Shown piece by piece: positions 6,649 through 40,476 of a stretch of 40,502 nt of DNA. Under the pieces are notes generated by a model, which was not told the DNA's origin, did no database searches, and saw nothing but the letters and a program-made list of their open reading frames with translations. The DNA comes from a virus. Each line of letters starts with the position of its first letter. The stretch's first letter is position 1. Made by a program: the position numbers and the translations under genes. The stretch spans positions 1 through 40,502 of IMG/VR virus record IMGVR_UViG_3300028840_003992; one strand, given 5' to 3'.

Positions 6649-8199
6649 TTAGTTACTTTCTCGCCAAGCGACTTCAATTCCAGCTACTGGGTACGAAATA
6701 GCTGTACCATTACAGTAGAACTGGATTTCATCGCCCTGTGATACATCAACATTTGTATCCGTTGCTTGATCACCAGAAGCAGCACTGATTACCAGAGAAG
6801 CAATTACAGAGCCACTACGTCGAACCTCAAAGGTCCAACTCTCTGCACCGTTTGTCTGTGCAAACAGGCCAGTAATGGTTCCATCGCGTAGCATTCTTAC
6901 ACCAGTCTTACTAGTCGCAATACCCTCGCCAACACGCAGGTAAACATTAGTTGCACCAGCATTGTTTCGGGTAGCCATATAGGTTGCCCTATCTACTGAT
7001 AGCCACTTGCTGCGAGTTGCATCATAGGCATATAGAATACCGCCCTTAAATTCTACGTTGCCTTCAACTGGGCTGCCCTTAAAGGTTCCGTCTGATGGCA
7101 GAATAATGTCACCATCGCTGAAGTCAAACTCCCCTATAACCTCATTCCTGGTAGCAACACCAGACAATAGCGCATACTGGGTATGGTCATCATCTAGTAG
7201 ACCAGTCAAGCCACCGTGATCTGTAATGATTCCAGAAGCTGGAGCAATTGCGAACCACTGTGTGCCATCATGAGCATATAGAGTTTCATCATCAGTATCC
7301 CAAGCCAATGCACCTTCACTTCCAGCAGGGAAGGAAGTTGTAACATCTGTTGCCTGAGGCAAGATGAAATAGTCGCCACCAGACATATCAATAGTGCCTG
7401 TGACTGCATTACGAGTTCCATCTCCATCAAGTAGCAAATATTGAGTGTGATCATCATCATCCTTGCCAGTTAGATCACCGTGGTCTCCACTGAATGGAGT
7501 TGGGATATCACTAACAAATGCGATTGATAGCCAAGTAGAGCCATCAAACATATATAGACGATCATCATCATCATCCCAAAATACTTCACCCTCAGAACCA
7601 GTCGGAGTGGTTGTACCGTGAGGCAGGATTAGCTCGCCATCACCAATATCAATACCACCAGAAACATCGTTCCTAGTCTTATCTCCAGCTAGCAATAGAT
7701 ACTGACTGTGGTCATCGTCATCTAGACCAAGGAGATTTCCGTGGTCATTCTGAACACCAGATGCAGTAGCAATTGCCTCCCACTGAGTACCATCCCACAG
7801 GTAAAGCGCATCCTGGTCGCTCCTCCAGAAGGTCTGCCCCTCTACACCAGATGCAGGTAGGGTATCACCATTCGGGAAAACTAGAGCACCAGAAGTAAGA
7901 TCAAGGGTATCGTCCTCAAAGTCAGCCATGAGAACAACGTCAGAAATGAATGCTGCAGCCTGCTCGATTGTTGCGCCATCCTTCGACCACTGGAGAGATC
8001 CTCCAGTAATTAGGGTATGTAGATCAACAGAATCGCGCAGTTCTCTTGCAGTAAACTGACCTCCCCCACCATCCGGATCACCCGCAGACTCAGCAGTCAA
8101 CTCTACCCAACTGGCACCAGTAGGAATAGTTATACCAAGATCCAGAACATCAACATCAGGATCGGTACCGTTATTCCCTGTACGTACATACAAAGCCAT
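6649..8199 (-). CDS. Repeat-containing fibre protein (DHG..DDDH.QY repeats)
   Basis: 516 residues from ATG 8199 with an AGGAGG site. The N-terminal ~60 residues are shared with the following gene. Then come three copies of a fibre repeat with a period of about 88 residues: DHGNLLGLDDDDHSQY (152-167), DHGDLTGKDDDDHTQY (239-254) and DHGGLTGLLDDDHTQY (327-342). Each copy is preceded by a 'LY.(W/F)DGT.W..IA' segment. Residues about 385-516 are a beta domain shared with the 170-residue gene upstream (KWLS, LRDGTITGLFAQTN, SWTFEVRRSG, GDEIQFYCNGTA, EVAWRESN). The DHG/DDDH.QY motif is well known in phage fibres. Its place between capsid and neck genes hints at head fibres or capsid decoration. Confidence 0.7.
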   Translation of the reverse strand: MALYVRTGNNGTDPDVDVLDLGITIPTGASWVELTAESAGDPDGGGGQFTARELRDSVDLHTLITGGSLQWSKDGATIEQAAAFISDVVLMADFEDDTLDLTSGALVFPNGDTLPASGVEGQTFWRSDQDALYLWDGTQWEAIATASGVQNDHGNLLGLDDDDHSQYLLLAGDKTRNDVSGGIDIGDGELILPHGTTTPTGSEGEVFWDDDDDRLYMFDGSTWLSIAFVSDIPTPFSGDHGDLTGKDDDDHTQYLLLDGDGTRNAVTGTIDMSGGDYFILPQATDVTTSFPAGSEGALAWDTDDETLYAHDGTQWFAIAPASGIITDHGGLTGLLDDDHTQYALLSGVATRNEVIGEFDFSDGDIILPSDGTFKGSPVEGNVEFKGGILYAYDATRSKWLSVDRATYMATRNNAGATNVYLRVGEGIATSKTGVRMLRDGTITGLFAQTNGAESWTFEVRRSGSVIASLVISAASGDQATDTNVDVSQGDEIQFYCNGTAISYPVAGIEVAWRESN

Positions 8200-32899: not shown

Positions 32900-33112
32900 A
32901 TGGCTCTCTCGAGGAAACTGAGCTGGGAATTCCAGCGGTTCAATCGCAGGATCAGTCAGTACGATCCGAAAAGCAAGAAAGGTCGTGAGTTGGACAGGCT
33001 GTTCGACGACCTGCTGGACCTTGCTACTGATCGTAAGAATGCTGATGGTACGATTGCTCCTCCCCTCACCGATGAGGAGGAAGATCAGATCATCAGCATG
33101 ATGGTCATCTAA
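32900..33112 (+). CDS. Small charged early protein, unknown
   Basis: 70 residues from ATG 32900 with AAGGAGAAAGG upstream; the first rightward gene. It has basic, helical N-terminal residues (MALSRKLSWEFQRFNRRISQYD) followed by an acidic C-terminal half (LDRLFDDLLDLATDRKN, TDEEEDQIISMMV). No family is recognised. The position, first after the divergent region, suggests early expression. Confidence 0.65.
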   Translation: MALSRKLSWEFQRFNRRISQYDPKSKKGRELDRLFDDLLDLATDRKNADGTIAPPLTDEEEDQIISMMVI

Positions 33113-33123
33113 TAGCCACTACA

Positions 33124-33158
33124 GTACTCCTCTCCCATGCCAGGAGGGAGGGGAGTAC
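33124..33158 (+). terminator. Strong 13-bp intergenic hairpin
   Basis: 33124-33136 pairs with 33146-33158 over 13 bp (one G-U wobble), with a 9-base loop. It directly follows the first rightward gene and is not followed by a T-run, so it may be a processing/stability hairpin or a weak terminator. Two smaller hairpins built on ACTAGT and AGAGGG repeats follow before the next gene. Confidence 0.45.
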
Positions 33159-33244
33159 ATCCTTCTCCTAGCATCACTAGTGCATGGTGTACTAGTGGTA
33201 CTAGTAGAGGGAATGTCCCCTCTCACACTGCTTAGGAGGCAGTC

Positions 33245-33658
33245 ATGTTCGAGTCCATCTTGGCCGTACTCTTCCTCGTCTTCCTGTTCGTGGGCGTACC
33301 CACTGCCCTGTGTCTGCTGTGTTGGGGACTGGTGGACCTGGTCCACATCCAGTCCCAGCTGCACACCCTCACCGCTGACACCGTGGTTGACCCCTGGGCT
33401 GACACCGCAGTTGGGCGTCGAGACCATGCTGTCGGGCCCTACCCTGAGCTGCATGCTGTCATGCCCTACCCTGAGCTGAGTGTACTAGATCAGTACACTG
33501 CCCAGTTCGAGGCACTGCAGGAGGAGTTCCGTACTCTCACCATGCAGTTCGTCAACAATCAGCATGGTATGCACCCAGCACAGTACGAGGCCATGGACAA
33601 GCGCATCCGTGACCTGAGGTACGAGATCAGCCTGGTACAGAGCAAGGTAGGCTCGTAG
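33245..33658 (+). CDS. Small membrane-anchored protein, unknown
   Basis: 137 residues from ATG 33245 with TTAGGAGGCAGTC upstream, the form of ribosome site reused before several genes of this arm. Residues ~4-32 are a transmembrane helix (ILAVLFLVFLFVGVPTALCLL). A short duplication PYPEL..VMPYPEL lies near residues 66-77. The C-terminal half is a coiled-coil-like helix (TAQFEALQEEFRTLTMQF, DKRIRDLRYEISLVQSK). The arrangement is a membrane anchor plus cytoplasmic coil; host-envelope action is inferred. Confidence 0.65.
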   Translation: MFESILAVLFLVFLFVGVPTALCLLCWGLVDLVHIQSQLHTLTADTVVDPWADTAVGRRDHAVGPYPELHAVMPYPELSVLDQYTAQFEALQEEFRTLTMQFVNNQHGMHPAQYEAMDKRIRDLRYEISLVQSKVGS

Positions 33659-33782
33659 TACACACAGCACCAAGGGGTGGGTGCTATACAAGTGCACCCT
33701 GCATGTATGCACATGGTGTGTATACACGTCCTCCCCTGTCTGATGGGGGGCAAGGCCCACGTACGGGCACAAGGAGACAGAC

Positions 33783-33962
33783 ATGAAGGCTGAGTTCGGC
33801 TGGACTGTGGTGCGCCGTCGTGACGGTAAGGTCGTGGTGTACAAGCGGGACTGTGATGTGAACGGTGTGTGGACTCAGGATCTTGTGCCTTACACCTTCC
33901 CGACTCGACGCGAGGCTAAGGAGGCTGCAAAGAAGGGCATCTATCGAGACTACAACAAGTAG
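33783..33962 (+). CDS. Short basic early protein, unknown
   Basis: 59 residues from ATG 33783 with CAAGGAGACAGAC upstream, read by hand (MKAEFGWTVVRRRDGK...). Beta strands with paired charges (WTVVRRRDGKVVVYKRD) and a basic helix at the end (TRREAKEAAKKGIYRDYNK) suggest a small nucleic-acid- or protein-binding domain. No family recognised. The ribosome site and codon pattern match the neighbours, so I take it as real. Confidence 0.65.
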   Translation: MKAEFGWTVVRRRDGKVVVYKRDCDVNGVWTQDLVPYTFPTRREAKEAAKKGIYRDYNK

Positions 33963-34062
33963 CGACATGGCCATAACAGGGGGCCTTGTACCCTGTCCTA
34001 GCTTAATTGACGAAACCATGGGGTGCTAGCTGATGTGTCAGCCCCAACACAAGGAGGCCGTC

Positions 34063-34398
34063 ATGGCTAAGAAGAGCAAGAAAGAGCAGAAGGCCGAGAA
34101 CAACAAGAAGAACCGCGACAACAGCAAGCCCACCCGTCGTCCCAAGCAAAAGGGCAAGGTCACCAAGCAGGTTGCCCAGAAGGACAGCACCTTCACGTAC
34201 GAGACGCAGAAGAGCCTGCAGCAGAAGAAGCTCGACGAGCTCATGGCGATGAACCCCACCGCCTGCATCCACAACATGCGTGACGTGGCGCGCAAGTGGG
34301 CCATGCTCCAGATGCGCAAGCAGCAGCCCTCCAACCAGAGCAAGTTCAGCACCAACAAGTTCGCCAACCTCAAGAAGGTCCTGCGTCTCGAGGCCTAG
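34063..34398 (+). CDS. Very basic small protein, probable nucleic-acid binder
   Basis: 111 residues from ATG 34063, which has CAAGGAGGCCGTC upstream (an in-frame upstream ATG at 34033 has no such site). The first ~45 residues are extremely Lys/Asn/Gln-rich (MAKKSKKEQKAENNKKNRD). The rest is helical with a Phe/Lys-rich end (SKFSTNKFANLKKVLRLEA). Disordered basic tails of this kind bind RNA or DNA; the specific role is unknown. Confidence 0.65.
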   Translation: MAKKSKKEQKAENNKKNRDNSKPTRRPKQKGKVTKQVAQKDSTFTYETQKSLQQKKLDELMAMNPTACIHNMRDVARKWAMLQMRKQQPSNQSKFSTNKFANLKKVLRLEA

Positions 34399-34403
34399 CA
34401 GTA

Positions 34404-34478
34404 GGCCAAGCTGAATAGAATAAAAACGGGCCTGTCTTCGGCAGGTCCTTGGCTCCCCACTGGTACAAGGTGTACCAG
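34404..34478 (+). other. Structured spacer with repeated 11-mer
   Basis: GCCAAG (34405-34410) pairs with CTTGGC (34448-34453), enclosing a hairpin at 34428-34448 (7 bp, loop containing cTTCGg). A second hairpin lies at 34460-34478 (7 bp, 5-base loop). The single-stranded part carries TAGAATAAAAACGGGC; its 11-mer TAAAAACGGGC recurs at 39557-39567. No T-run follows, so this looks regulatory rather than a simple terminator. Confidence 0.4.
34421..34431 (+). repeat. 11-mer TAAAAACGGGC, copy 1
   Basis: Identical to 39557-39567. Both copies lie in non-coding spacers after a gene block and before a structured segment. Confidence 0.5.
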
Positions 34479-34529
34479 GCCTGAAAAGACCATGGCTTAG
34501 GGGAGATGGTATCTGCTAAGGAGGCAGAC

Positions 34530-35630
34530 GTGTCGAGACTACCAAACAACAACCTGCACGAGGTAGCAACTGGTGATCGTAACACCCTGTTGTTCGCCCA
34601 CGACTGGGAGATTATCTGCAGGCCCACTCCGGATGGCAACAGCTGGACCTACAGGATAAAGGGCAAGCTGACGAGAGAGCAGTATCCCTGGAAGCTGGAC
34701 GACAATCGTCCGCTGCAGAGGACTGCAACCCTGATCGACTGCTACCAGGGTGGCTACTACCCGCAGGTGCTCGACGGGCTGGGCAACATCTACGAGCTTC
34801 ACGATCCCAAGAACAGCAAGCAGGCATGGCTGCTTCAGGGCTTCAAGCGTCGCATTGCTGACCAGCGGCACCTCAACATCTACTCCGAAGACTGGATGCA
34901 AGACCGCTTCATCCGCTTCTGGAGAGAGCAACGCAACAAGCGTGAGCAAGAGCGGAACGAGAATGGCAAGACGCATCAATCTCGTGAGGACAAGAAGAAC
35001 CTCGCACTGCTCTGGGACGACAGCCGCAAAGAGCCACTGATGTACTACCACAACGTCCTGGAGAAGGGTCTCACTCGAGATCGGTATGCCTTTGGAGCAC
35101 GACAGGTCTTCGTGCGCAAGTATTCCTGGGCCATCCCCAATCACGATGCCATCGTGAGCATCAGGGAACTGAACATGCCAGTCCTCGAGGTTGGCTGTGG
35201 CTCTGGCTACTGGTCCTGGGAACTTCAGCAGGCTGGTGTCGATGTGGTCGCAACTGACATCGATGTCGGTGAGAACCACAAGTGGGGCCACGATGAAGGC
35301 TGGTTGCCTATCGAACATGGTCACGGTGCTGCCATGGCCAAGAAGTACGCCAAGACACACGCGCTACTCGTATGCTGGCCTGACTTCAGACCCGAGGGTG
35401 GCAAGTGGGCAGAGCATGCCCTCAAAGCCTACCTCAAGAACGGCGGCAAGTGCGTCATCTACGTCGGTGAACCCGATGGTGGGTGCACAGGCACTCGTGA
35501 GTTTCATGACGAGCTGTACAAGAACTGGCGTGCAATCGACGACAAAGAGGATGAAGGTTGGTCACGTGGCGTGGAGATCCCGCAATGGGACGGCATTCAT
35601 GATCGCATGTGGATCTACAAGCGCAAGTAG
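34530..35630 (+). CDS. SAM-dependent methyltransferase-like protein with unknown N-terminal half
   Basis: 366 residues from GTG 34530, which has CTAAGGAGGCAGAC immediately upstream; an in-frame ATG at 34506 lies before that site and would place the Shine-Dalgarno inside the gene. The C-terminal half has class I methyltransferase motif I (VLEVGCGSGYWSWELQQAG, about residues 218-236) followed by the acidic end of strand 2 (VVATDID). A motif-IV-like strand follows (ALLVCWPDF). The first ~200 residues are unrecognised (aromatic-rich, basic helix QRNKREQERNENGK). Early phage methyltransferases modify DNA, RNA or small molecules; the substrate cannot be told here. Confidence 0.7.
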   Translation: MSRLPNNNLHEVATGDRNTLLFAHDWEIICRPTPDGNSWTYRIKGKLTREQYPWKLDDNRPLQRTATLIDCYQGGYYPQVLDGLGNIYELHDPKNSKQAWLLQGFKRRIADQRHLNIYSEDWMQDRFIRFWREQRNKREQERNENGKTHQSREDKKNLALLWDDSRKEPLMYYHNVLEKGLTRDRYAFGARQVFVRKYSWAIPNHDAIVSIRELNMPVLEVGCGSGYWSWELQQAGVDVVATDIDVGENHKWGHDEGWLPIEHGHGAAMAKKYAKTHALLVCWPDFRPEGGKWAEHALKAYLKNGGKCVIYVGEPDGGCTGTREFHDELYKNWRAIDDKEDEGWSRGVEIPQWDGIHDRMWIYKRK

Positions 35631-35642
35631 AGGTCAGCTGCC

Positions 35643-35864
35643 ATGGAAGAGAACAGGATAATCCTTTGGGAGATCGACCAGGTCACCGGTCAGTTCCTCA
35701 TTGCAGGGGTTCACTCCCTGCCCGAGGACATCAAGCTGGTGGACTGTTTTACCCGAATCGGACGCATCTGGAGGGACAACGGCAAGAAGTACAGGGGCAT
35801 CATCCACAGCATCACTCTGATGCTGGATGGCAACGAGTACCGCATCGAAAGGAGACAGAAGTGA
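35643..35864 (+). CDS. Small protein, unknown
   Basis: 73 residues from ATG 35643 with GAGGT eight bases upstream. Its stop overlaps the next start (GTGA). Mixed alpha/beta: RIILWEIDQVTGQFLIAG, a basic middle, and a final strand (SITLMLDGNEYRIERRQK). No family recognised. Confidence 0.6.
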   Translation: MEENRIILWEIDQVTGQFLIAGVHSLPEDIKLVDCFTRIGRIWRDNGKKYRGIIHSITLMLDGNEYRIERRQK

Positions 35865-36190
35865 ACATCGAAGAGAAACTCAACCAACTCGCCAAGCTCT
35901 CGGACGAAGACCTTCAGGAGCAGCTCAAGCTGCTCAGTAAGGAGCTCAGTAAGATCGAGACCAAAGGCAAGGCTGCCAAGACCGAGAAGACCAAGGTCAA
36001 GTGGCGCACTGCCTGGAAGGCCAAGGCATTGCTCTACAACATCGCCCTGGTGGCCAAGTTTCGCCACAACTGCACCCGCTGTGGTGGCTCCGGATACGTG
36101 GAACACGCCAGGGATGCCTACCGGTGCTACTGGTGCAACAACCCTGACTTCGATCGCAACAAGATCTTCTGGCACAAGAGCTGCCGATAA
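35861..36190 (+). CDS. Zinc-ribbon small protein
   Basis: 109 residues from GTG 35861, with AAGGAGACAGAA upstream, overlapping the previous stop as GTGA. A Leu/Lys/Glu-rich coiled-coil-like N-terminal half (EEKLNQLAKLSDEDLQEQ) precedes a CxxC-x16-CxxC ribbon (CTRCGGSGYVEHARDAYRCYWC) and a basic end. Such ribbons bind nucleic acid or a polymerase subunit; the target is unknown. Its stop overlaps the next start as TAATG. Confidence 0.65.
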   Translation: MNIEEKLNQLAKLSDEDLQEQLKLLSKELSKIETKGKAAKTEKTKVKWRTAWKAKALLYNIALVAKFRHNCTRCGGSGYVEHARDAYRCYWCNNPDFDRNKIFWHKSCR

Positions 36191-36372
36191 TGGATCCCAT
36201 CGTCAAGATCTTGCGCACCCCCATTAACCAGCTGGAGCTATCCCTGCAGGTATTGCCTGAGCAGGTTGACCAGTGGGTCCAACACCTGGAGGGTTTGGGC
36301 TACTCCATCATCGCTGTAGAGTATGGCCCCGAACTCCCCGTAAGCACAATCAGATACAAGAAGCTGAAATAG
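36190..36372 (+). CDS. Small protein, unknown
   Basis: 60 residues from ATG 36190, coupled to the previous gene by TAATG. Pattern: strand, helix, strand, strand (LELSLQVLPEQVDQWVQHL, YSIIAVEYGPEL, STIRYKKLK). This is compatible with a ferredoxin-like mini-fold, but no family is recognised. Confidence 0.55.
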   Translation: MDPIVKILRTPINQLELSLQVLPEQVDQWVQHLEGLGYSIIAVEYGPELPVSTIRYKKLK

Positions 36373-36421
36373 TCTAGGCTAAGGCTAGCAGTTAACACAC
36401 AACACCCAAACGAGGCAGATC

Positions 36422-37546
36422 ATGACCAAGAAAGAACTGTATGCAACCGCCAAGACCCTCAACATTCGCGGGCGTTCCCGCATGAACAAGGCTCAGCTGC
36501 AACGAGCCATTGACATGACCTTGGGTGAGCCCATGGTCGAGAAGGAGGCAAGCATGGACAGCAAGCAGATGCTCGTGTCCCTCACCCAGGACATGAACCT
36601 CAAGTTCGACAACGGTGAGCGGGTGAACATCGTTGAGATGCGTGCACCTCGTGATGAGATGGACGTACTCTTCAATGACCCGAGCCCCAACCTCTTCGAG
36701 GACTACAACCTCGAGGCTGAGTTCAACGAGATGCTCGAGCTCCAGGAGGGCATGGCCAGTGTTCGTGCACAGGCCATTGGTCTCAAGCAGGGCGTCATCG
36801 ATGCTCGCAAGGAGGAGTACAAGCTCAAGATGCAGGCTGAGTATGCACTGCGTCGTTACCTGGAGCTAAAGGGCACCTTCAGTGGACTCATGGAGAAGCT
36901 CAACCGTGCCAAGGAGCGCTGGGCTGCTCTCTCGGTCGAGGTCAAGCGCAAGCTCAACGGCGAGAAGAATCGCTGGAAGAAGACTTTCTGGCGTCAGACC
37001 ATGCCGGTCAAGGAGAAGCGTGACAAGGCGTACAAGGAGTTCAACGAGCTCAAGGCTAAGGCCAAGGCTGCAAGCAACAAGCTCAAGGCTGAGTATGCCA
37101 AGTTCGATCTCCACGGCAAGGCTGAGGCTGAGGTCCTGTGGGATCTGTGGTGGGAGCTGCAGGCGGGCTGCAGTGAGTTCACTCAGTGCTCCATGGCTGG
37201 ACACGGACGTCTCTGGGGCGAGTACTTCGACCTGATGAACGACGAGGATTATCTCCTCTTCGTGCAGCTCGATCCCGAGGACATCGACGACCAGAGTCTG
37301 CTGATGGATCCCATCAACACGGAAGAGTGTCTGCGGGACAGTCACCTCGCTGACCCCTTCTCCAAGCCCGACACCTACGAGCGGGACAAGGTGGAAGAAC
37401 TACCTGTCCGTACGTATGGTTACGTGGCTCCGGTGCGTGACGTCACTGACCAGTACAGGCCTGAGGCTGAGCTGGCGGCTGAGTGGGAGGAGTTGGACCG
37501 CAACTTCATGGAGCTCCTGGACGAGCACGACCTCAGCTACGCATAG
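36422..37546 (+). CDS. Rho_N/SAP-like domain fused to a long coiled coil
   Basis: 374 residues from ATG 36422 with CGAGGCAGATC upstream. Residues ~3-33 match the Rho-N/SAP-like fold (KKELYATAKTLNIRGRSRMN, then KAQLQRAI), a small helical domain that binds RNA or DNA. Residues ~95-230 are a long charged coiled coil (LQEGMASVRAQAIGLKQ, KEEYKLKMQAEYALRRY, KEKRDKAYKEFNELKAKAKA). The rest is acidic, with a Trp-rich segment (VLWDLWWELQAG). It is the largest protein of the rightward arm. It may bind nucleic acid and oligomerise; function unknown. Confidence 0.6.
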   Translation: MTKKELYATAKTLNIRGRSRMNKAQLQRAIDMTLGEPMVEKEASMDSKQMLVSLTQDMNLKFDNGERVNIVEMRAPRDEMDVLFNDPSPNLFEDYNLEAEFNEMLELQEGMASVRAQAIGLKQGVIDARKEEYKLKMQAEYALRRYLELKGTFSGLMEKLNRAKERWAALSVEVKRKLNGEKNRWKKTFWRQTMPVKEKRDKAYKEFNELKAKAKAASNKLKAEYAKFDLHGKAEAEVLWDLWWELQAGCSEFTQCSMAGHGRLWGEYFDLMNDEDYLLFVQLDPEDIDDQSLLMDPINTEECLRDSHLADPFSKPDTYERDKVEELPVRTYGYVAPVRDVTDQYRPEAELAAEWEELDRNFMELLDEHDLSYA

Positions 37547-37573
37547 TCTACAAGCTACGCATTAGACTCAGGA

Positions 37574-37610
37574 CTAGCGCTGATCCTGGTCCGAACCCAG
37601 GCAGTGCTAG
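37574..37610 (+). other. Long hairpin with tRNA T-arm-like tip
   Basis: 37574-37582 pairs with 37602-37610 (9 bp, one G-U), then a 2-base bulge. Above it CCTGG (37585-37589) pairs with CCAGG (37597-37601), capped by the 7-base loop TCCGAAC. The tip keeps the T-arm features (G-C closing pair, C56/R57/A58 pattern). No other tRNA parts are present. It lies just before the next gene's ribosome site. Confidence 0.5.
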
Positions 37611-37633
37611 GTCTGCAACAACAGGAGGCAGAT

Positions 37634-37801
37634 ATGTACAGATGCGAATTCTGTGACAACGGAGTCGTGGACTACGACAAAGAGTTCGGTGGACCACCAG
37701 CTCCTGGTGAGCCTGTCATGTGCGACAAGTGCAAGGCTAGGTTCAAACAGGAAGAGGAAGAGATTCTCGCCGACCTGCAACGTCGACAGGAGGAGATGTA
37801 A
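37634..37801 (+). CDS. Two-CxxC zinc-ribbon mini-protein
   Basis: 55 residues from ATG 37634, which has ACAGGAGGCAGAT directly upstream; an earlier in-frame ATG at 37604 lacks a site and lies in the hairpin spacer. CEFC near the N-terminus and CDKC about 25 residues on form a zinc ribbon. An acidic helix ends the protein (KQEEEEILADLQRRQEEM). Small treble-clef/ribbon proteins often act on host transcription; the target is unknown. Confidence 0.65.
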   Translation: MYRCEFCDNGVVDYDKEFGGPPAPGEPVMCDKCKARFKQEEEEILADLQRRQEEM

Positions 37802-37802
37802 C

Positions 37803-38057
37803 ATGAATCTGGAGCTCAGATTCGGCATGCGTCAAACCCAGATCATGCGCTGCAAGTTCTGCGATGGGCACATGGACGACGAGAACAGCCATCGGCCAAC
37901 CTGTCCATACAACAGCGGGCGCATCGTAGAGATGGCTGCTGAGCTAGCTAGCTTTGGCTTTAACGTCAAGCTGCACCAGGGTCAGATCAGCATTGCTGGA
38001 CAGCTCATCAATCCCGTAAGAGCACACATGGCTCTGGAAGTCCTAAACGGTAAATAG
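37803..38057 (+). CDS. Small Cys/His metal-site protein
   Basis: 84 residues from ATG 37803 with AGGAGGAGATG upstream. Near residues 17-35 there is CKFCDGHMDDENSHRPTCPY, a C-x2-C / H-x3-C type metal site. The C-terminal half is a small alpha/beta unit (VEMAAELASFGFNVKLHQG, QISIAGQLINPVRAHMALEV). It follows the ribbon gene by one base. Family unknown. Confidence 0.6.
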   Translation: MNLELRFGMRQTQIMRCKFCDGHMDDENSHRPTCPYNSGRIVEMAAELASFGFNVKLHQGQISIAGQLINPVRAHMALEVLNGK

Positions 38058-38101
38058 TAGGAACTGAACGAACGAAAGGCTACTAAGGAGGCTGAGCCAA
38101 G

Positions 38102-38302
38102 ATGAAAACTTTCCTCATGATTCTCGTCATCGGTGGACTTCTCGGAACTGCTGCGCATTTCGCAGAGACCGGAGATGCGATCAAGGTCATCAGTCGCGAC
38201 GGAGAGGTGTGCGGCTGCATGTACGACGAAACTGGATTCAAAGGGTGTGATGACTCTGGAGACGTGGAATACGTCGTCATCGAAGCATCCACCTGCAACT
38301 GA
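38102..38302 (+). CDS. Tiny exported or membrane-anchored Cys-rich protein
   Basis: 66 residues from ATG 38102 with TAAGGAGGCTGAGCCAAG upstream. Residues 3-18 are a signal/anchor (FLMILVIGGLLGTAAH). The remainder holds four Cys (VCGCMYDET, GFKGCDD, ASTCN) that could form disulphides outside the cytoplasm. First of a run of envelope-type mini-proteins. No family recognised. Confidence 0.6.
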   Translation: MKTFLMILVIGGLLGTAAHFAETGDAIKVISRDGEVCGCMYDETGFKGCDDSGDVEYVVIEASTCN

Positions 38303-38312
38303 AATCATAAGA

Positions 38313-38439
38313 CCTAGATCAGTTCCACTGGGGACTGGCTAGGCTGATCACTTCAGGTCCTTCGGCCCCGACCTGGCGTCTTCGGACAACAACTAAACTG
38401 GGCTAGGCTTGGGAACAGGTCCAACCCCTGTTCTCAGGC
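38313..38439 (+). other. Hairpin-dense spacer with a second T-arm-like hairpin
   Basis: In order: CCTAG (38313-38317) and CAGTTCC (38320-38326) pair with GGGACTG (38331-38337) and CTAGG (38339-38343). Then CAGGTC/GACCTG (38354-38359 with 38370-38375), a GTC-TTCG-GAC mini-hairpin (38378-38387), and a 13-bp hairpin (38407-38419 with 38427-38439) capped by the 7-base loop TCCAACC. The last resembles the 37574-37610 hairpin. It lies between two membrane mini-protein genes. Confidence 0.5.
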
Positions 38440-38472
38440 TTAATTCTAACCAACAGACAAGAGAGACAAGTC

Positions 38473-38808
38473 ATGACCAAGGCTGAGAAGAAAATCTGGA
38501 ACATCATCAAGAACGCAGGTACGGGCGTGGCAGTCGGAACTGGTGTAACGATCTACTGGGCAGCAGCTGCCTTGGTCGCACCAATCGCTTACCCCGTGCA
38601 CAGTGCCCTCATGGGCCTGGCAATCAGTAAGGCAAACGAATGCCACAGCCTCGAGACCGCTGCCCTGACGGTCAGCGGCTTCGGACTGGGACTGGTCCTC
38701 ATTCCGGCTGCTCCGATCAACTTCCTGTGCTCTCCGGTGGCAATCCCTCTGGGTGCCGCAATGGGTGGACTCGTCGGACACGTCGAGAATCAGAAGGAGA
38801 AGAAGTAG
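38473..38808 (+). CDS. Small multi-spanning membrane protein
   Basis: 111 residues from ATG 38473. Three hydrophobic stretches (AVGTGVTIYWAAAALVAPIAYPV, AALTVSGFGLGLVLIPAAPIN, VAIPLGAAMGGLVGHV) suggest two or three membrane spans, with charged ends (TKAEKKIWN; ENQKEKK). Tiny early membrane proteins of this type are candidates for superinfection exclusion or host-membrane takeover; the function is unknown. Confidence 0.6.
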   Translation: MTKAEKKIWNIIKNAGTGVAVGTGVTIYWAAAALVAPIAYPVHSALMGLAISKANECHSLETAALTVSGFGLGLVLIPAAPINFLCSPVAIPLGAAMGGLVGHVENQKEKK

Positions 38809-38810
38809 CC

Positions 38811-39110
38811 ATGAGTGCACTCAAGACCTCAACGATCCTCATCACTGTCTTCGCCGCCCTGATGCTCTTCGTCCTGGCATTCAGCTCAGGCAAGGGAATC
38901 GTCGCCCTCGGAGACTACGAGCATGCTGTAGCCTTCTGTGGGTGTGAGATCGATCACGTCGTGTTCCAGCCTGGTGAGGCTAGCGTCAAGTATGACGCAA
39001 CGCATGACATCACCTACGTGATCAACAAGGGTCACGAGATGGACGTGGCGGTCATCGACCTGATGGCCAAAGCAGAGCACGAGTGCAAGAAACTCGAGGA
39101 GGAGAAGTGA
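38811..39110 (+). CDS. Small single-span membrane protein with external domain
   Basis: 99 residues from ATG 38811 with AAGGAGAAGAAG upstream, two bases after the previous stop. N-terminal span at ~8-26 (STILITVFAALMLFVLAFSS), then a small domain with a Cys pair (AFCGCEID), strands (HVVFQPGEASVKYDATHDI) and a Lys/Glu end. It is organised like the 66-residue protein upstream (anchor plus CxC). Family unknown. Confidence 0.6.
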   Translation: MSALKTSTILITVFAALMLFVLAFSSGKGIVALGDYEHAVAFCGCEIDHVVFQPGEASVKYDATHDITYVINKGHEMDVAVIDLMAKAEHECKKLEEEK

Positions 39111-39298
39111 TGAGCGAAGAAACCAAACAAGCAGAGAACACAGCTAAGTTCGGGGAAGTCCTGGCCACCTCAGCGCGAGTTGCTGGTAAGGGCACCCTGT
39201 TCGGCCTGGTATGGACGGCCAAGCAGGTAGCCAGTGGTGCCAAAGCGACCGGCCGGGTGTTCGCCGAGGAGTGGAAGCGCCAGAAGGAGTCCAGATGA
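39110..39298 (+). CDS. Small protein with amphipathic/membrane helix
   Basis: 62 residues from ATG 39110, overlapping the previous stop as TGATG, with GGAGGAG upstream. It is helical with a hydrophobic middle (LATSARVAGKGTLFGLVWTA) and a basic end (FAEEWKRQKESR). It is coupled to the genes on both sides. Family unknown. Confidence 0.6.
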   Translation: MSEETKQAENTAKFGEVLATSARVAGKGTLFGLVWTAKQVASGAKATGRVFAEEWKRQKESR

Positions 39299-39477
39299 TG
39301 GACGAGGAGAGCAAACCCAGCCGCTTCACCCGCGCATCCAGACGTGAGTTGGACGCAGTGATGCGTCTCTACTACGTCAGCAAGGAGAAAGACCTCGACA
39401 GTGACGAGGTGCGTCGCTGTCTGTTTTGGGTCGACGCGTGGGAGATGGCAGCCGACAAGTACGACTCTCAAACTTAA
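39295..39477 (+). CDS. Small helical protein, last gene of the early operon
   Basis: 60 residues from ATG 39295 (ATG 39298 is an equal alternative), overlapping the previous stop as ATGA, with AAGGAG upstream. Charged helices (RFTRASRRELDAVMRLYYVS, EVRRCLFWVDAWEMAADKY). It is followed at once by a small hairpin and a strong terminator. Family unknown. Confidence 0.6.
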   Translation: MMDEESKPSRFTRASRRELDAVMRLYYVSKEKDLDSDEVRRCLFWVDAWEMAADKYDSQT

Positions 39478-39508
39478 CGACACAGCAGGATCTGCCTCCT
39501 TTCCTGCA

Positions 39509-39553
39509 AGGGGAGCCTGGGAATTCGCCTGGGCTCCCCTTTCTTTTGTTTTC
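39509..39553 (+). terminator. Rho-independent terminator ending the early operon
   Basis: AGGGGAGCC (39509-39517) pairs with GGCTCCCCT (39532-39540): 9 bp, followed by TTCTTTTGTTTT. A weaker 6-bp hairpin (39485-39490 with 39502-39507) lies just upstream. The gene-free structured region begins beyond it. Confidence 0.85.
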
Positions 39554-39556
39554 CTT

Positions 39557-39567
39557 TAAAAACGGGC
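39557..39567 (+). repeat. 11-mer TAAAAACGGGC, copy 2
   Basis: Identical to 34421-34431. Here it lies between the terminator and the long-range stem of the structured RNA candidate. Confidence 0.5.
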
Positions 39568-39606
39568 AGTTTCTTTACTTTCTAGCCAATAAAGTGTCGT
39601 TTTCCT

Positions 39607-39963
39607 AGTACATAGAATAAAGGGGAAACAAACCCCCGAGCGAAGCGAGGGCTCTTTCTGTCTTCAGCAGAAAGAGGAACCCCCCGAAGGGGGGAATAGT
39701 CTCCTCAAGTTGATACCACATTCCAGCAATAGCTGGAAAGTAAGCCAGAGTCGAGGAGAACAAGAGGAGGACCTCTGGCCTAATATACGCCTTAATACCC
39801 CACGAGTGAGACTAACTAACCAGTTATGTCGAAGGAGGGGTAGCTATCTAAAGTGTGGTTCCACAACCGTGGAGCCAGACTAAATAAGCTAAGTCAGTTC
39901 ACTAAAATAATACAAGTCAAGCTCACTAATATAGTATGTAAGTGGTTCTTTATTCTATGTACT
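39607..39963 (+). ncRNA. Candidate large structured non-coding RNA (~357 nt)
   Basis: AGTACATAGAATAAAG (39607-39622) is the exact reverse complement of 39948-39963: a perfect 16-bp closing stem across 325 bases, extendable by two G-U pairs. Inside lie several hairpins. 39635-39651 has GC/GC with a GAA loop and tandem G-A mismatches over CCC/GGG. 39652-39676 is 9 bp with a 7-base loop. 39680-39694 is 6 C-G pairs with a GAA loop. 39721-39738 is 7 bp with loop AATA. 39744-39779 is 7 bp. 39796-39842 is TACCCC/GGGGTA over an 8-bp arm with loop AACC. 39856-39877 is 9 bp with loop AACC. CTCCTC (39701-39706) can pair with GAGGAG at 39753 or 39764, a possible pseudoknot. There is no credible reading frame. 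The strand is assigned from the neighbours; the class is unknown. Confidence 0.6.
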
Positions 39964-40022
39964 CTGTTGAATACAGGGTGCAAAAGGACCGCCCGCGCCT
40001 GCCACAAATACTTACTCCGTAA

Positions 40023-40083
40023 CTGGTCTCTTCCCCTTTTTAAGGGGTGATCAGCTCCACGAGATGACCAAATCTCCGTGGAG
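40023..40083 (+). other. Two back-to-back strong hairpins before the next gene
   Basis: First: CTGGTC (40023-40028) and CCCCTT (40033-40038) pair with AAGGGG (40042-40047) and GATCAG (40049-40054). Second: CTCCACG and AGAT (40055-40065) pair with ATCT and CGTGGAG (40072-40083), with one bulged C. They abut without a spacer and end ~48 bases before the next start codon. They may be a coaxial RNA element, a 3' extension of the large RNA, or a leader control element. Confidence 0.45.
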
Positions 40084-40131
40084 ATGGAGAGGGTTCAAAA
40101 CTCAGTCGGAGAAAACCTCCAGGAGGCAAAG

Positions 40132-40476
40132 ATGTTCTACTACAGCAAGTACTGGGGAACCTGGTCTCGCGTGCTCACACGCTCCCACAACGATTGGGAG
40201 ACCGTGGAAGTCAACATTACTCCCATCAATGCTAGCTTCGAAGATACCAGCTGGGACAAGATCAAGCAGTGCTGGATCAGAGTGCACTGTACTACCCCAA
40301 CGTCTGCTGACACCAAAAGCCTTCCCGCCGAGCAAGAAGAAATGCTCGTTGCTCAGGTAGGTAAGGAAGTCGCTGACTTCCTGATGCATGGCGACATCCT
40401 CAGCCTCATCGACTTCAAAAAGTACAACAAACACAAGAACGGTGGCTGTCCTCTCAGCCTGTGCAGAAAGGGCTAG
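40132..40476 (+). CDS. Unknown early-type protein
   Basis: 114 residues from ATG 40132, with CCAGGAGGCAAAG directly upstream; earlier in-frame starts (40078 GTG, 40084 ATG) lie in the hairpin and lack a site. N-terminal aromatic-rich strands (MFYYSKYWGTWSRVLTR), a middle strand (QCWIRVHCTT), an acidic helix (AEQEEMLVAQVGKEVADFLM) and a Cys-containing end. No family recognised. Confidence 0.65.
   Translation: MFYYSKYWGTWSRVLTRSHNDWETVEVNITPINASFEDTSWDKIKQCWIRVHCTTPTSADTKSLPAEQEEMLVAQVGKEVADFLMHGDILSLIDFKKYNKHKNGGCPLSLCRKG

Follow-up and report, generated by a model that had tools for sequence, protein, structure and literature searches.

The function of many large phage RNAs is a current puzzle, and two such RNAs, GOLLD and ROOL, have only recently been shown to assemble into RNA-only cages. 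GOLLD is often >800 nt long and is often found near tRNA islands, and ROOL is a complex RNA borne by phages and prophages that contains multiple pseudoknots (PMC12286853). The structures of both are supported by covariation, and both are often tRNA-associated (PMC12286853). In phage ICP1, an abundant ORF-less RNA of ~800 nt was seen by RNA-seq, as was a transcript of the PLE satellite that lies between inverted repeats and was suggested to be antisense to leaders (PMC7567579).

The element described here, 357 nt at positions 39607-39963 of a 40,502-base virus record (the window, that is, the whole stretch of DNA that was analyzed), is probably a structured RNA, as judged from its perfectly matching ends and its predicted fold. 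ROOL is larger than this 357-nt element. Like GOLLD (RF02032), the element is large, hairpin-rich, phage-encoded, and of unknown function, but it is about half the size and has neither a tRNA gene nor an Rfam match. ROOL is likewise a phage-borne complex RNA, with multiple pseudoknots where the element has a possible one, whereas the element lacks an Rfam match, homologues for covariation, and, as far as the sequence is known, a tRNA island. That the element is "comparable in kind" to GOLLD or ROOL is only a resemblance.

The Infernal search against Rfam is consistent with the reserve of the earlier note, which had compared the element with these RNAs without claiming membership: cmscan of the window gave no match at the gathering threshold, GOLLD and ROOL were both absent at E ≤ 5, and none of the group I/II introns, ribozymes, and riboswitches in Rfam was matched. 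The absence of GOLLD rests on cmscan, because a separate GOLLD search matched no control genome. No tRNA genes were found in the window or in its L014 extension, the genome being incomplete. What stands of the earlier comparison is that the sequence is best read as a structured RNA closed by a long-range helix, and what is unsupported is kinship, given the missing Rfam match, the roughly half size, and the lack of tRNA genes.

By analogy, we regard the ICP1 and PLE transcripts as the best precedent for the element. They share with it a gene-free spacer in a lytic phage or satellite, and the PLE transcript also its position between inverted repeats; they differ in having been seen by RNA-seq. 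For the PLE RNA an antisense action on leaders was suggested, whereas the complementarity of the element to phage leaders is at chance level. The element may work like RNAs of the ICP1/PLE type, but membership in any family is unsupported. A retron ncRNA and a TnpB-type guide RNA were rejected because the partner proteins are missing: neither PF00078 (reverse transcriptase, for retrons and DGRs) nor PF07282 (for TnpB/Cas12f-type guide RNAs) had a match in G000 or G003, while control genomes were positive for both.

Gene context of the element

The window is a tailed-phage fragment that includes terminase and capsid genes. Among cultured phages, these two proteins are closest to those of Moorella phage MTATph1, Bacillus phage KLEB27-3, and Acinetobacter phage ME3, with just ~31-36% identity. 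The structural genes point leftward, and a block of small rightward genes, probably early, spans 32,900 to 39,477 and continues from 40,132 onward. The interruption is a 654-base spacer (39478-40131), inside which the element sits. The sister contig G003 of the same strain reaches 5.3 kb beyond the window end, and the rightward block goes on there; the window and the sister contig show two differences across their overlap, none inside the RNA. The spacer is non-coding by codon score, which bears out the earlier statement that the enclosed sequence is gene-free, and a small ORF at 39853-40050 was rejected as a gene on its negative codon score. The gene that follows the spacer belongs to phrog_30474 and is a candidate target if the RNA acts as a leader; its relatives occur in large Rhizobium, Aeromonas, and Erwinia phages, and some of them carry a CYTH-like phosphatase annotation. 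In the same strain, L014:7078-7338 encodes a phage protein of 87 residues that matches the C-terminal domain of ribosomal protein L7/L12 in part and below the cutoff (E 1e-4). The features of the spacer and its right flank are as follows.

39508..39541, + strand: intrinsic terminator with a 14-bp stem and the tail TCTTTTGTTT, closing the upstream + strand gene block
39542..39606, + strand: T-rich stretch from the terminator to the RNA, the presumed promoter site
39607..39622, + strand: 5' arm of helix P1, AGTACATAGAATAAAG, the exact complement of the 3' arm
39635..39651, + strand: hairpin CCC-GA-GC-GAA-GC-GA-GGG; its internal loop may be a tandem G-A
39652..39676, + strand: 10-bp hairpin CTCTTTCTGT/GCAGAAAGAG, from the fold
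39680..39694, + strand: hairpin CCCCCC-GAA-GGGGGG, from the fold; the other strand reads C(UUCG)G
39700..39759, + strand: stem A, 39700-39706 with 39753-39759, 7 Watson-Crick bp
39721-39738, + strand: hairpin TTCCAGC/GCTGGAA, enclosed by stem A
39744..39779, + strand: stem B, 39744-39750 with 39773-39779, 7 Watson-Crick bp, crossing stem A
39797..39841, + strand: arm ACCCC...GGGGT with an inner stem and an AACC loop, from the fold
39842..39890, + strand: arm with the 9-bp hairpin TGGTTCCAC-AACC-GTGGAGCCA, pair probability 1.0
39920..39947, + strand: AT-rich 3' hairpin adjoining P1, from the fold
39948..39963, + strand: 3' arm of helix P1, CTTTATTCTATGTACT, the exact complement of the 5' arm
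40132..40476, + strand: next gene, 114 aa, phrog_30474, 168 nt after P1, with the Shine-Dalgarno sequence AGGAGG

Closing helix, internal fold, and strand

The perfect 16-bp long-range stem claimed in the earlier note was borne out: the arms of helix P1 are exactly complementary and 325 nt apart, and its mean pair probability is 0.98 when the + strand is folded. Of all perfect, non-palindromic inverted repeats in the window with arms within 1.5 kb of each other, P1 is the longest, the runner-up measuring 12 bp. When the spacer 39478-40131 was dinucleotide-shuffled 150 times, the longest arms with a span of 150 nt or more measured 7-11 bp, and in a survey of non-coding gaps with the sister contig and relatives (51 including the P1 spacer) all others reached at most 11 bp. 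A naive window-wide estimate (~6e7 pairs within 1.5 kb) gives ~0.01 and is less extreme than the chance of ~5 in 100,000 given earlier for a 650-base region. One further 16-bp repeat (L015 836/1789) is present in ~1.5 Mb of related sequence; the 16-bp length is by itself rare rather than unique. P1 is convincing because it is located in a gene-free, strongly folding spacer, and its position outweighs its length as an argument. Eleven other contigs containing the 16-mer were set aside, the second arm being missing from them and their occurrence fitting chance.

On the + strand, 39607-39963 folds with an MFE of -133.3 kcal/mol and a z score of about -6.6, and on the - strand the z score is about -5.1 (100 shuffles each). 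Without the closing-stem arms it is about -5.5 on the + strand and -3.9 on the - strand; the strong fold is independent of the closing stem. In the fold model, P1 closes a junction of about eight hairpins, several of which have pair probabilities >0.95. The interior is packed with hairpins, as had been described, and the two AACC loops (39818-39821 and 39865-39868) and two C-GAA-G tips (39642-39644 and 39686-39688) were all located. The flanking GA/GA of hairpin 39635-39651 could form tandem sheared pairs, and the opposite strand reads UC/UC there. Stems A and B may form a pseudoknot or may be competing alternative folds, and forcing stem B into the nested fold costs ~7 kcal/mol.

The region as a whole tends to fold strongly, and we count this against the reading of 39607-39963 as a discrete RNA domain. 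Several spacers in the rightward block fold well, and the neighboring spacer 33113-33244 contains long perfect hairpins (z -5.8 on the + strand). A second gene-free spacer of the same strain, L014:8522-8993, lies ~3 kb to the right of the element; it is 472 nt long, has a z score of -6.5, and contains a 16-bp hairpin stem, GATAGGAGGAGGGGAG. This spacer showed no similarity to 39607-39963 and had no homologue among the fetched loci. Because strong folding is common to other spacers of the phage, the element is less surprising than it would otherwise be.

Near the spacer, a strong + strand terminator was called at 39508-39541 and nowhere else, and no + strand terminator was found downstream of the element before the 40132 gene. 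Terminator-like sites inside the element are on the - strand only, which argues against - strand transcription. The unpaired bases of the + strand fold are 52% A, and nearby coding sequence likewise gives A-rich loops (44% A). Only five of the 110 pairs are G-U, so that wobble pairs do not decide the strand. The GA/GA motif, the A-rich + strand loops, and the restriction of terminator-like sites to the - strand favor the + strand, and the element would be transcribed rightward. A sigma-70-like promoter was found nowhere near the element, including 39542-39606. The sequences ATAGAATAAA and TAAAAACGGGC recur together at 34415-34431 and occur separately at the left flank of the RNA (39557-39567) and in the P1 arm (39612-39621); they possibly represent a promoter-like element, with a recurrence not clearly beyond chance.

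Possible modes of action

In rRNA precursors, long-range leader-trailer stems join the ends of a structured RNA and are processed by RNase III; P1 is also a long-range helix that joins two ends, and we infer its processing only from this likeness. Our preferred reading, with a probability of roughly 0.4, is that the element is an orphan: a discrete, self-folding, + strand RNA domain of ~357 nt that is processed at P1 and acts on its own. Transcription would start after the terminator at 39508-39541 and, because no terminator follows the element, continue into the 40132 operon. P1 would join both ends around the hairpin junction and the possible pseudoknot, and would serve as an RNase III-type processing stem by analogy with the rRNA precursors. 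Processing would release a stable, nuclease-resistant RNA that might be a scaffold or decoy in trans. A domain released or delimited by P1 is favored because P1 sets both ends, the fold stands alone, and the element has no terminator of its own. The analysis establishes the stem, the fold, the lack of coding sequence, the gene context, and the absence of relatives from the databases searched; strand, transcription, processing, and trans action are all things that we infer, and excision at P1 is possible by analogy. It is a bolder and unlikely proposal that the element is the first example of a new class of phage RNA, compact, closed by P1, and pseudoknotted, that works as an independent ribonucleic particle or an RNA-only assembly, and that the early regions of this phage group carry several unrelated large structured RNAs. 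Because the candidate is short and its ends are clear, this orphan would be easy to transcribe in vitro and to probe.

A cis-acting leader is nearly as likely as a free RNA domain, and is itself tentative. The element would be the 5' part of a ~525-nt untranslated region that controls the 40132 operon, e.g., through put/nut-like antitermination, by protecting the mRNA, or by binding a ligand or protein. The 40132 gene is on the same strand with its start 168 nt after P1, no terminator intervenes, and the element directly follows the terminator that ends the preceding block. P1 and the gene are, however, kept apart by these 168 nt and by further hairpins, neither an expression-platform-like terminator nor a sequestered ribosome site was identified, and no leader family was matched by cmscan against Rfam. 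The inverted repeat and hairpins might instead act at the DNA level, as a replication origin, a protein-binding repeat, or a cruciform. Nearly all pairs are Watson-Crick, so both strands fold, the element is single-copy, non-coding, and lower in G+C than the neighboring genes, and GC-GAA-GC tips are very stable DNA mini-hairpins. We nevertheless consider a DNA element unlikely, as the GC skew does not clearly switch at the element, the + strand folds better than the - strand, and 325 nt between the arms is far for an operator.

It is less probable still that the 16-bp arms are the terminal inverted repeats of a domesticated or decayed miniature inverted-repeat element. Perfect terminal repeats do surround a non-coding core, and such an origin was suggested for the satellite transcript between inverted repeats (PMC7567579), but the window and the sister contig hold no second copy, no arm pair with a spacing of 310-340 occurs elsewhere in IMG/VR or GTDB contigs, and the flanks share CT only, which is too short for a target duplication. 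The least credible proposal is an antisense regulator of phage leaders, after the manner of the P4, P1, N15, or PLE RNAs. Phage-satellite RNAs bounded by inverted repeats and with a suggested antisense role exist (PMC7567579), whereas the duplex energies of the element with phage leaders were no better than chance (a mean z of -0.07 and a best of -2.5 in ~50 tests); an antisense role is disfavored for these phage targets.

Search for relatives and structured spacers elsewhere

The only other occurrence of the RNA in IMG/VR was in the sister contig, which was also the only contig retrieved by IMG/VR scans with four early-region proteins. An IMG/VR capsid scan gave 48 contigs, and the RNA was present in G003 alone; it was absent from the other contigs by blastn, and from the fetched ones also by nhmmer. 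In ~45 relatives, no RNA was found by blastn or by covariance model. Most relatives are without the early region, the rightward block being unmatched in the relatives tested, and the 91%-identical relative G001 stops before the region of the element. The covariance model R1 found the sister contig only, apart from noise below threshold in two phages of INPHARED, blastn of INPHARED and PLSDB gave only noise at E=4, and the capsid and arm-pair scans of GTDB contigs gave nothing. A diverged homologue was thus found in none of IMG/VR, the GTDB genomes, INPHARED, and PLSDB; a 31-base, 81% match in G023 was rejected as an ordinary CCCCCGAAGGGGG hairpin. The missing relatives are an absence of data and not evidence against the structure. 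The early regions of these phages change so quickly that homologues cannot be found, and single-copy structured RNAs, of which the element is an example, are therefore missed by discovery methods that rely on covariation.

Long structured spacers are also present in the relative G013 (L123 12590-13115, 13640-13885, 14616-15095, and 7050-7393). Two of these four end in terminators just before a gene, and in one an imperfect stem closes off ~250 nt. The spacer 7050-7393 was rejected as a counterpart of the element: it has a long closing stem, but one that does not clearly exceed shuffles (p about 0.08), and no sequence similarity. In G040, an AT-rich 680-nt spacer (L154 3326-4007) carries a string of long perfect hairpins, with a z score of about -25 (10 shuffles). 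At L124 4110-4185, tRNA-like halves are permuted, with the T-arm before the D-arm; ordinary genes for tRNA-Arg and tRNA-Ile lie nearby. The large terminase gene at L017 8102-11401 contains an intein-like insertion ending in HN-C, and that at L133 2727-5894 contains an insertion at a site different from that in L017.
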